A stretch of DNA of 64,000 nt from Mesobacillus subterraneus (lineage in GTDB: Bacteria > Bacillota > Bacilli > Bacillales > Cytobacillaceae). The stretch lies in NCBI RefSeq assembly GCF_000934845.1, contig NZ_JXIQ01000029.1, forward strand, positions 1 to 64,000, given 5' to 3'. Shown in pieces: positions 36,891 to 39,175 of the stretch. Each line of letters starts with the position of its first letter. Within the stretch, counting starts at the first letter, position 1. The notes under the pieces are model-generated. The model had not been told where the DNA came from. It saw only the letters and a list, made by a program, of their open reading frames with translations, and ran no database searches. The position numbers and the translations under genes are program-made.

Positions 36891-36937
36891 ATAACTGATC
36901 AAGATGGATTGGCTTTTGCAAGATAAAGAGTTAGTAA

Positions 36938-37045
36938 GGCTGCGAAAAGTTCGGAAGCAGGTTCCGAACAACTGGTTGCGAAGGATTCGGAAGTAGGTTC
37001 TGAACGATAGCTTCGAGTCTCGGGAGTGGGTTCAGCTGGTTGAAG
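36938..37045. repeat. Degenerate 36-bp tandem repeat
   Basis: About three units with the core TTCGGAAGYAGGTTCYGAAC recur at near 36-bp spacing (near 36951, 36987 and 37021). A looser copy lies near 37075. In one frame the unit would encode a 12-residue repeat like AKSSEAGSEQLV, interrupted by a stop. The rest of 37046-37287 shows nothing I can name. Confidence 0.4.
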
Positions 37046-37287
37046 ATAAGGCAGCCGACAGTCTGCTTCCGAGCGGTTCAAAAGCAGGTTTCGAAGCGGA
37101 TCCAAGAGTTGCTTCCAACAACATCTCATTGATGCTTGCATTCCGTGGACGACTGAAGCAGATTGCCAAAAGGATGGTTTAATTCTTGTATACCTGGATC
37201 GAGAGATAGAAAGAGTAGGCCGAATGAATTGGCCTTTTATACGAGAGTGTAAAAACTGCTGGAAAAAATACGCATTTTTTTCCAATT

Positions 37288-37398
37288 CGCCAATAAAAAT
37301 AAATTATCGCCAATAAAAAAAATTTATCGCCAATAACTATAGCATTATCGCCAATAAAATGGTGAACTCCGCCAATAAAATGAAATTTTCGCCAATAA
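37288..37398. repeat. Six CGCCAATAA repeats at 20-21 bp spacing
   Basis: CGCCAATAA begins at 37288, 37308, 37328, 37349, 37370 and 37390. All six copies are exact and direct, spaced 20, 20, 21, 21 and 20 bp (two helical turns). The spacers are A/T-rich and unrelated. The array ends about 120 nt before the RNase J start. Confidence 0.9.
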
Positions 37399-37516
37399 AC
37401 GGATTTCCATCTACTTAATGGGTATAGAAAAGATGAGATATTCTACTCCAAACGAAATAATCGGAATTATAGTGGGCAATACTAACAAAATCGACTACGG
37501 TTTAGGAGGATATGAC

Positions 37517-39175
37517 GTGACTTTATCGATCTTCGCCTTGGGAGGAATCAATGAAATCGGCAAAAATATGTATGTAATCCAATATGAGGACGATATTTTT
37601 GTGATTGATTGCGGCGGAAAATTTCCTGATGAGAGTCTGCTTGGAATCGATTTGATTATCCCGGAAATGACTTATCTAGAAGAAAACCGCGAAAAAATTC
37701 GCGGCTTGATCGTGACCCATGGACATGAGGACCATATCGGGGGCATTCCCTATTTTTTCAAAAAGCTAAAAGCGCCTGTGTATGCTACTAATTTCACGCT
37801 TGGCTTGATCGAGTTAAAATTAAGGGAGCATAAGCTGTTGCGAGATACAGAGCTGAAGAAAATCAATTCAGATTCAGAATTAAATTTCGGCAAGGTAAAG
37901 GTTTCGTTTTTCAAAGTAAGCCATAGTATTCCGGATTGTCTCGGGGTTGTTTTCCACACGCCAGAGGGGAATATTGTCCATACAGGAGACTTCAAATTCG
38001 ATCTGACCCCAGCAAATGATGGACACTCAGAAATTCATAAAATGGCAAGAATCGGAACTGAAGGAGTTCTGGCCATGCTGTCTGAAAGTACGAATGCGGA
38101 GCGGATAGGGCTCACGCCATCAGAGCGAATGGTCGCCGGTCATTTGGAAGAAGCATTCATGAAGGCGGAAGGGAAAATTTTTGTCTCTACTTTTGCCTCA
38201 AACGTAAACAGGATTCAGCAGGTTGTCGAGGCGACAGTCAAAACAGACAGGAAGCTTGCTTTGCTTGGTAGGAGCATGGTGAATGTTGTAGATGTTGCGA
38301 TAGAAAGAGGCTACCTCGATGTTCCAGAGGGAATGCTAATTGAACCGCATGTTGTCGACCAGCTGGACCCTGGAAAGGTTACAATTTTATGTACGGGCAG
38401 TCAAGGTGAACCGATGGCAGCACTTGCCCGTCTTGCAACCGGGAATTTTCGAGATGTATCGGTCTATCCTGGAGATACGGTCATCATGGCTGCGTCACCG
38501 ATTCCAGGCAATGAAAAAGATGTATCAAAAATCATTGATAACCTTTTTAAGCTCGGAGCCAATGTGATTTACGGCTCAGGTAGCACGACCGGTATGCATG
38601 TTTCCGGTCATGGCTACCAGGAAGATCTCAAATTAATGTTGACACTGATGAAACCGAAATATTTCATCCCGATCCATGGGGAATATCGCATGCTCCATCA
38701 TCATCGCTTGCTTGCAGAATCAGTTGGCGTAGAAAAAGGACATACATTCATCATTAGAAATGGAGACATCGTTGATCTTGCAAATGGAGAAGCAAGACAG
38801 ACTCGAAACATTCCGGCAGGTGACACTTATGTAGATGGTATAAGTGTCGGAGACGTCGGCGAAATCGTACTAAGAGACAGAAAGCAGCTTTCTGAGGATG
38901 GAATGCTTGTGATCGTCCTGACTTTGAGCAAGTCGGAACGGAAAATTATCTCGGGGCCAGATACGATTTCTCGCGGGTTCGTATTCGTGAAAAACTCTGA
39001 AGATCTTATGCGCGACGTAAATAACCTAGTTGCTAAAACGGTAACGGAATTGCATGAGGATAATGTCCATCGTTGGAATGCCATTAAGCAGGGAATCAAA
39101 AAAGCAGTAGGCCAGCATATTTTCCAGCAGACGAGAAGAAAGCCAATGATCCTGCCGATAATTATTGAAATCTAA
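37517..39175 (+). CDS. Ribonuclease J family protein
   Basis: A metallo-beta-lactamase/beta-CASP ribonuclease (552 aa). RNase J enzymes combine 5'-3' exonuclease and endonuclease activity in mRNA decay and rRNA maturation. The metal motif THGHEDHIGG is intact, as are HTGDFKFD, the beta-CASP segment FVSTFASNVNRIQQ, CTGSQGEP and HVSGHG. The C-terminal dimer domain ends RKPMILPIIIEI. It resembles RnjA slightly more than RnjB of B. subtilis and may be a further paralogue. The frame opens at 37418, but GTG 37517 is 7 nt past AGGAGG and gives a normal N-terminus. Its upstream region holds the CGCCAATAA array. Confidence 0.9.
   Translation: MTLSIFALGGINEIGKNMYVIQYEDDIFVIDCGGKFPDESLLGIDLIIPEMTYLEENREKIRGLIVTHGHEDHIGGIPYFFKKLKAPVYATNFTLGLIELKLREHKLLRDTELKKINSDSELNFGKVKVSFFKVSHSIPDCLGVVFHTPEGNIVHTGDFKFDLTPANDGHSEIHKMARIGTEGVLAMLSESTNAERIGLTPSERMVAGHLEEAFMKAEGKIFVSTFASNVNRIQQVVEATVKTDRKLALLGRSMVNVVDVAIERGYLDVPEGMLIEPHVVDQLDPGKVTILCTGSQGEPMAALARLATGNFRDVSVYPGDTVIMAASPIPGNEKDVSKIIDNLFKLGANVIYGSGSTTGMHVSGHGYQEDLKLMLTLMKPKYFIPIHGEYRMLHHHRLLAESVGVEKGHTFIIRNGDIVDLANGEARQTRNIPAGDTYVDGISVGDVGEIVLRDRKQLSEDGMLVIVLTLSKSERKIISGPDTISRGFVFVKNSEDLMRDVNNLVAKTVTELHEDNVHRWNAIKQGIKKAVGQHIFQQTRRKPMILPIIIEI

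Follow-up and report, generated by a model that had tools for sequence, protein, structure and literature searches.

Plasmid iterons and DnaA boxes are direct, non-palindromic 9-mers or repeats of 20-22 bp in A/T-rich DNA, the motif of the DnaA box being TTATNCACA. BOX elements are modular and have a repeated middle part. Those of Streptococcus pneumoniae have been described as interspersed repeats that are likely parasitic and have extensive secondary structure (PMC3049150). REP and BIME sequences are short, dispersed extragenic repeats with regularly spaced units, for which protein binding as well as roles in chromosome organisation and transcription termination have been proposed; BIMEs are built of REP palindromes in alternating orientation and are tied to RAYT transposases, and the repeats coevolve with the protein (PMC2817692). 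The BrickBuilt MITE of Porphyromonas gingivalis, present in 19 intergenic copies in one genome, is composed of 23-nt tandem repeats without spacers, a leader with an inverted-repeat end, and a tail module (PMC4596501). The DNA uptake sequences of the Neisseriaceae are short words that form "dialects" between related species, occur in thousands of copies and are linked to transformation (PMC3630211).

The stretch of DNA analysed here (the window) comprises 64,000 nucleotides of the genome of Mesobacillus subterraneus. A preliminary description had drawn attention to six exact copies of the nonamer CGCCAATAA upstream of an RNase J gene. This array represents a single copy of an element of about 140 bp that is dispersed between genes; it is not a feature of RNase J. 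Set against the published descriptions, we class it as a new form of the dispersed-repeat kind, outside the REP/BIME, BrickBuilt, BOX, and uptake-sequence families. With REP and BIME it has dispersed, regular repeats outside genes in common, but its words are non-palindromic and co-oriented, follow each other at 20 or 21 bp, and are flanked by an inverted repeat on one side only (PMC2817692). Intergenic copies, repeats of nearly two helical turns and an inverted-repeat leader recall BrickBuilt; in contrast to the latter, conservation extends to about nine of every 20-21 positions, the word varies between species, and a tail was not found (PMC4596501). Like BOX, it forms an interspersed family in one genome and is modular with a repeated middle, whereas its RNA fold does not rise above chance and its words look selected (PMC3049150). 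Uptake sequences likewise consist of short words that vary from one related species to another, yet the words of the present element form phased arrays, of which there are tens of copies, and several dialects occur in one genome (PMC3630211). As far as these sources describe REP/BIME, BrickBuilt, and BOX, the dispersed intergenic habit is common to all of them, while conservation of the words alone, co-oriented and in phase, is peculiar to the present element. Iterons and DnaA boxes differ in that tens of chromosomal copies occur here, and no replication gene was seen beside the arrays of this genome. The reversed words start with TTAT, as do DnaA boxes; a DnaA-box cluster was dismissed, because the reverse words TTATTGGCG, TTATTCGCA, and TTATAGCG have TTAT, not CACA.

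The Array in the Window

The six words were re-found at the positions originally reported, all of them exact, on the + strand and with start-to-start steps of 20, 20, 21, 21, and 20 bp (Table 1). In the whole window the nonamer occurs seven times, as compared to 0.57 expected, and none of 100 shuffles got to seven. While the words had been described correctly, the unit had been drawn too small: a 29-bp inverted repeat directly 5' of the first word is also part of it, and the element spans 37259 to 37398. The half-sites of the inverted repeat are spaced by about two helical turns.

Table 1: Features of the element in the window and of its surroundings
Feature	Position	Strand	Basis or remark
Gene 3'-end remnant	37186..37209	+	Letters near-identical to the upstream-gene end in G004 and others
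Terminator-like stem-loop and T run, 20 bp 5' of element	37218..37238	+	Sequence, stem-loop scan
Inverted repeat CTGGAAA...TTTCCAATT, start of element	37259..37287	+	Sequence; 29 bp
Word 1, CGCCAATAA	37288..37296	+	Exact match
Word 2, CGCCAATAA	37308..37316	+	Exact match
Word 3, CGCCAATAA	37328..37336	+	Exact match
Word 4, CGCCAATAA	37349..37357	+	Exact match
Word 5, CGCCAATAA	37370..37378	+	Exact match
Word 6, CGCCAATAA, right border of element	37390..37398	+	Exact match
RNase J family beta-CASP ribonuclease, 3' neighbour outside element	37517..39175	+	TIGR00649 above cut-off

The stem-loop 5' of the element was found by our own stem-loop scan and is absent from the list of a second terminator scan. 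Of the gene located upstream in most relatives, which we take to be hmgA for homogentisate 1,2-dioxygenase, only the last bases are kept in the window, the rest being gone. At the position of that gene in relatives, the window has imperfect GGTTCCGAAC-like repeats (36930-37110), which yield a spurious-looking ORF of 128 amino acids on the minus strand. The RNase J neighbour scores below the cut-off of the RnjA model and above that of TIGR00649. Its start is likely the GTG at 37517, the longest ORF beginning at 37418; an ORF of 552 amino acids from the equivalent start is present in G003, G009, G011, and G020, and longer ORFs, as in the window, are found in G005 and G007. With this GTG as the true start, the array would end about 118 bp 5' of the gene and not 20 bp. 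Since two further matches at the DNA level exist in the same genome (G000:C29 and C137; 65% and 64% identity), there are probably several RNase J-type genes, of which this is one.

Architecture and Copies of the Element

Counted over the genome, as had been suggested, the nonamer occurs 136 times, compared to 40 times for the reversed control. Pairs of CGCCAATAA with 8-16 bases between them number 52 (26 per strand; reversed control, 0) and fall into 16 clusters, as counted from the listed places. When viewed with their flanks, most of these clusters have an inverted repeat CTGGAAAaaa...TTTCCAGTT at the 5' side; its pattern is matched by 12 of the 16 arrays and not by the other four. The typical element starts with a 29-bp inverted repeat, CTGGAAA...TTTCCARTT, which is followed by about six words at steps of 20 or 21 bp. 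The units are co-oriented, non-palindromic words, and each element has a single inverted repeat at one of its ends, not at both. In G008 (C99:28829/28859) and G014 (C17:59144/59174), two arrays diverge about 30 bp apart, seemingly sharing one inverted repeat, which would then be a symmetric centre.

A combined search for inverted repeat and words in seven of the 21 genomes of the genus yielded 111 elements in 42 locus groups, one of which merges two loci with similar regulators; a recognisable inverted repeat beside the first word was required, so that arrays devoid of it (e.g., L191 and L198) are not among the 111. Six is the most frequent number of words per element (73 of 111), the range being one to eight; as parsing of an array ended at a word with more than two mismatches, strongly decayed words are not part of these counts. 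Among representatives of the 42 loci, little is kept beyond the inverted repeat and the last word save one or two A's, and 3' of the last word only the first base is appreciably conserved. Judged by eye, unrelated loci have repeat and spacer sets in common, which identifies the elements as dispersed copies of one ancestral element.

This origin can be accommodated by a non-autonomous, MITE-like mobile element, in which inverted repeat and words would be transposase sites and the words would look conserved because the copies are young or mobile. Transposases of the Tn7, Mu, and Tn552 type have several phased sites per end. In line with mobility, borders are sharp and flanks different in three among the six pairs with the highest similarity within a genome, two inverted-repeat subfamilies have their own spacer sets as if copied from masters (both by eye), elements lie behind terminators at 19 of 41 loci, and 17 of the 42 locus groups, as defined by flanking ORFs, are held by one of the seven genomes only. 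However, the flanks of the most similar pair within a genome (95.7%) are related, as if a segment had been duplicated, and one query element had no match at E 0.001 among 72,556 plasmid and 50,697 phage records. By eye, no transposase was recognised and no RAYT noticed among the seven gene families that were found repeatedly at distances of up to 2 kb from 100 arrays. Nor was a target-site duplication established, the flanks in G010 and G012 being too diverged for a junction to be placed by eye.

Conservation and Geometry

Between 34 pairs of orthologs, which had identical step patterns, at least four words and the same first two letters, the words differ at 34 of 1836 positions (1.9%) and the spacers at 399 of 1936 (20.6%). 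For 391 non-ortholog pairs, the respective values are 3.1% and 35.6%. It had been proposed from the six copies in the window that the nonamer and its phase are conserved and the spacers are not, and the orthologs bear this out. From the divergence of words and spacers between orthologs the words look selected, and it is strongly supported by sequence comparison that words and geometry would be kept by selection. Past mobility would explain the origin of the element, not the continued conservation of its words at fixed sites; words that are intact at orthologous sites while the spacers have diverged by a fifth are unlike a dead insertion, and the MITE-like explanation is possible but doubtful.

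The steps are equally well kept: they measure 20 bp (296 cases), 21 bp (190), 19 bp (4), or 22 bp (1), so that 486 of 491 follow the clustering at 20-21 bp first suggested, and the total is held near 102 bp. The most common orders are 20,21,20,21,20 (22 arrays) and 20,21,20,20,21 (21 arrays), and in 49 of the 77 arrays with at least six words the five steps add up to 102 bp. The span of these 77 arrays is 100-103 bp, whereas the gaps to adjacent genes often differ by tens or even hundreds of bases. The variance of the five-step sum is 0.39, compared to 0.91 for independent steps; being less than half of the summed variances, it implies that a longer step is usually offset by a shorter one, to which shared ancestry contributes. 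In addition, dinucleotides consisting of A and T only are phased at about 10.2 bp, with a power of 3.04 versus 1.54 after shuffling of the spacers (36 loci, median p 0.018). This exceeds what the fixed words alone impose, and it is the signature that would be expected for bent or wrapped DNA.

That the words lie on one face of the DNA, as originally assumed, agrees with the 20/21-bp phase but has to be modified, because the mean step of 20.4 bp drifts round a relaxed helix. It corresponds to 10.2 bp per turn, so that the words would share one face only if the DNA were wrapped or overtwisted. The assumption of protein binding or DNA bending is consistent with the phase, the step compensation, and the A/T phasing of about 10.2 bp, the binding protein itself being putative.

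According to the preliminary description, scattered arrays with random spacing would indicate a neutral repeat. The arrays are indeed scattered, but their spacing is not random. A neutral minisatellite would agree with copy numbers between one and eight and with the long arrays of 20-bp period in other genera; it is hardly tenable, given that spacers but not words differ within an array, that words are conserved between species, and that steps are compensated. Two other candidates were discarded: the spacers share A/T-rich patterns and are thus unlike the guides of CRISPR or TIGR-type arrays as we know them, and the frame of a coding repeat would be broken by the 20-bp steps.

Genomic Setting

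The arrays of the M. subterraneus genome are located next to pgi, ileS/lspA, mnmE/jag, trmB, pdaA, mrp/apbC-like, rodA/ftsW-like, and other genes. In all seven genomes examined, one element is found after pgi and another before RNase J. Over the 21 species, it precedes RNase J in 18 and is absent in G010, G012, and G018; in G019, only the last two words are present on a short contig. The usual order in relatives is upstream gene, terminator, element, and RNase J, and G010 and G012 have a terminator-like stem and the end of that upstream gene at the same place, with no array. Carriage by 18 of 21 species, together with these flanks devoid of an array, implies that the array is tied to the site and not to the regulation of RNase J in particular. 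The proposed link to RNase J and RNA decay could not be upheld, since the same element is present beside many unrelated genes and only three of 41 loci are divergent.

The location of the elements is biased, with 28 tandem, ten convergent, and three divergent loci (n = 41). A co-directional terminator is found within 110 nt upstream at 19 of 41 loci, the other three placements accounting for 8, 6, and 8; by our own stem-loop scan, 22 of 41 loci do not have a co-directional upstream terminator. The terminator scan covers 41 of the 42 loci, one locus being without flanks. Several loci differ greatly between genomes in their distance to the next gene, and others keep it constant.

These data bear on the view that the array is a classical operator, on which a transcription factor would control the next gene. 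Phased direct repeats resemble multi-site operators, and some arrays lie 50-150 bp 5' of a gene. Nevertheless, an operator fits poorly with the neighbours, which are unrelated housekeeping genes without a coherent set, and with the rarity of divergent loci among many convergent ones; the very variable distance at several loci also speaks against it, so that we regard it as unlikely. An RNA element, be it a leader, a 3' untranslated region or the repeated RNA site considered in the preliminary description, would be compatible with the fact that, of 41 representative loci, 25 have the element and the upstream gene in the same direction, and with the position behind a terminator at 19. However, the element in the window folds no better than shuffled sequences (z -0.32), the inner pairs of the inverted repeat are no better than independent columns in 97 elements, and hence without covariation, and a search of Rfam gave no match at the gathering score. 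The element is antisense to both neighbours at 8 of the 41 loci, or at 11 when counted more strictly, and its 102-bp geometry is fixed; an RNA element is therefore very improbable.

Among the recognisable DNA-binding families, only regulators of the sigma-54 type were met repeatedly within 2 kb of the 100 arrays; three genomes have them at two loci each, which could be a coincidence. Their genes lie directly 5' of two elements (L195, L202, and orthologs) in three genomes and provide a weak lead to the binding protein. The complete chromosomes of G003, G005, G007, and G011 have no inverted-repeat elements from about 2.0-2.2 to 3.4-4.05 Mb; a similar gap exists in G009 and none in G020. The density of core genes might account for this element-free stretch, as might avoidance of one chromosome region.

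Exchange of the Word at Fixed Sites

Arrays at the same site in related species can carry another word. Before RNase J, TGCGAATAA takes the place of CGCCAATAA in G011, G013, and G016; the array of G013 includes two words TGCGAACAA and ends with CACCAATAA. The array of G001 is mixed, with five TGCGAATAA words next to the inverted repeat and older-type words behind them. Pairs of TTTGCGAATAA are found in 13 of the 21 genomes and pairs of TCGCTATAA in 18, the exceptions being G010, G012, and the genome of the window.

Comparison of G020 with eleven element sites of G003 revealed four sites with CGCTATA, four with CGCCAATAA-type words and three without an element of this build. CGCTATA occurs at the sites of L286, L287, L297, and L300, with steps of exactly 20 bp, in the same orientation and behind an inverted repeat of the same kind, one change being present in a few of the words; this class was parsed at loci fetched beforehand. 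At L284, L295, L302, and L303 the CGCCAATAA-type words are partly altered, and L279, L298, and L299 are the sites without such an element. The inverted repeat of the mrp-side site (L287) does not differ between G005 (L344) and G020 (L378) in any of its 29 bases, and T is the final letter of both the first and the last word in G020 as in all five CGCC orthologs. In the parsed CGCC-class arrays of G020, 15 of 28 words after the first are intact, compared to 70-88% in the other six genomes.

Homology of the spacers across the switch is only suggestive. Their mean score is above the non-ortholog mean in seven of eight switched arrays and below it in one, and for the G020 arrays the G003 ortholog is matched or beaten by 44 of 81 (L297), 39 of 78 (L287), and 35 of 81 (L286) non-orthologous arrays; the G003 array at L300 is too short for a spacer score. 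The exact spacer AATCATTTTTT makes up six of 296 spacers of 11 nt, four of which come from RNase J arrays, the switched array of G011 among them; it is also present in G001. With homology as weak as this, the switch may be a conversion in place or a replacement of the whole array at the same inverted repeat. A letter-by-letter change of the words in place was not retained as proven, the spacer homology being suggestive at most.

Mixed arrangements of words were also observed. At the G020 site of L298 (L387:6600-6920), three GTGGTCGA words at 21-bp steps occur together with two CGCCAATAA; judged by eye, GTGGTCGA is perhaps a fourth type of word. Arrays of CGCTATA and of CGCCAATAA stand face to face in one gap at G003:C1:3635944-3636426, L317, L348, and G017:C3:122417-122655.

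Occurrence beyond the Genus

Pairs of the CGCCAATAA word are present in 20 of the 21 genomes of the genus. The exception, G012, has none, nor any array of the other words tested, which shows that the system is dispensable. In a sample of the order, 12 of 397 genomes matched, namely ten of this genus (including that of the window) and two of one other genus; CGCTATA triples were detected in five of 199 genomes, four of this genus and one other. Among the matches listed for a wider collection, Sporosarcina, Allobacillus, and Metasolibacillus also carry arrays. Among these matches, the arrays of Sporosarcina reach 20 copies, with steps of mostly 20 bp and of 21 bp in one species, and no such inverted repeat was seen. 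Two Sporosarcina arrays, of 17 and 20 CGCCAATAA copies (L066 and L082), lie about 0.5 kb or less from 5S rRNA genes. Many single pairs in unrelated bacteria among the matches listed were taken for chance, and each of 17 viral-contig matches consists of a single pair. Two loci recorded under Chryseobacterium sp. ISL-80 (L041 and L069) have elements with the inverted repeat typical of this Bacillus-like genus, and the record is probably mislabelled. The literature matches listed did not include a description of the element.

Long ATATCGC arrays with mostly 20-bp steps, two alternating spacers and 226 triples were noticed in another genus of the order (G168:C1, C2, and C5; L447-L476) through the reversed control of the CGCTATA-triple search; they represent either another dialect or an unrelated 20-bp satellite. 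In a further genus (G210:C1 and G104:C2; L269-L276), a reversed control led to near-exact 20-bp tandem arrays with AATAACCGC.

Proposed Function of the Element

The explanation we favour, with a probability of about one half, is a BIME/BOX-like dispersed element with a phased, probably DNA-wrapping row of putative protein sites, whose dialects would follow the binding protein. Its two modules, the inverted repeat and a set of about six non-palindromic words that follow each other at two helical turns in A/T-rich DNA, would formerly have spread as a unit, as is supported by the spacer sets common to several loci (by eye). Many copies were then inherited at fixed sites, as the comparison of genomes shows, and the divergence of words and spacers strongly supports that words and geometry are held by selection. 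Several molecules of a putative sequence-specific DNA-binding protein would be aligned side by side on the words, and this protein row, anchored at the inverted repeat and often at gene ends, would bend or wrap about 130 bp. The role of the element would be that of a chromosome-organising or transcription-insulating site rather than of an operator of the next gene. Upon a change in specificity of the protein, or takeover of a site by a related protein, the words of an array would change together; the dialects CGCCAATAA, TGCGAATAA, and CGCTATA, whose exchange is observed directly, would be the outcome.

More tentatively, and as a rather bold extension, the element might be a bacterial counterpart of a nucleosome-positioning array. 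Arrays of 102 bp with 10.2 bp per turn at gene ends would be wrapped round an oligomer of an undescribed DNA-binding protein, and the word would be rewritten across arrays and loci as the specificity of the protein shifts, giving rise to dialects on a fixed chassis in related species and even among loci of one genome.

If the proposed function is true, a class of A/T-rich sequence between genes would become explicable in genome annotation. Changes in the specificity of a binding protein would then be recorded directly in the sequence, at tens of fixed sites, in some of which the words have switched together, the flanks, inverted repeat, and spacing being unchanged. The coevolution of a DNA-binding protein and its sites would thus become testable in cultivable, harmless soil bacteria, and the arrays would point to a protein of the Bacillales with a possible role in chromosome organisation or in the insulation of gene ends.
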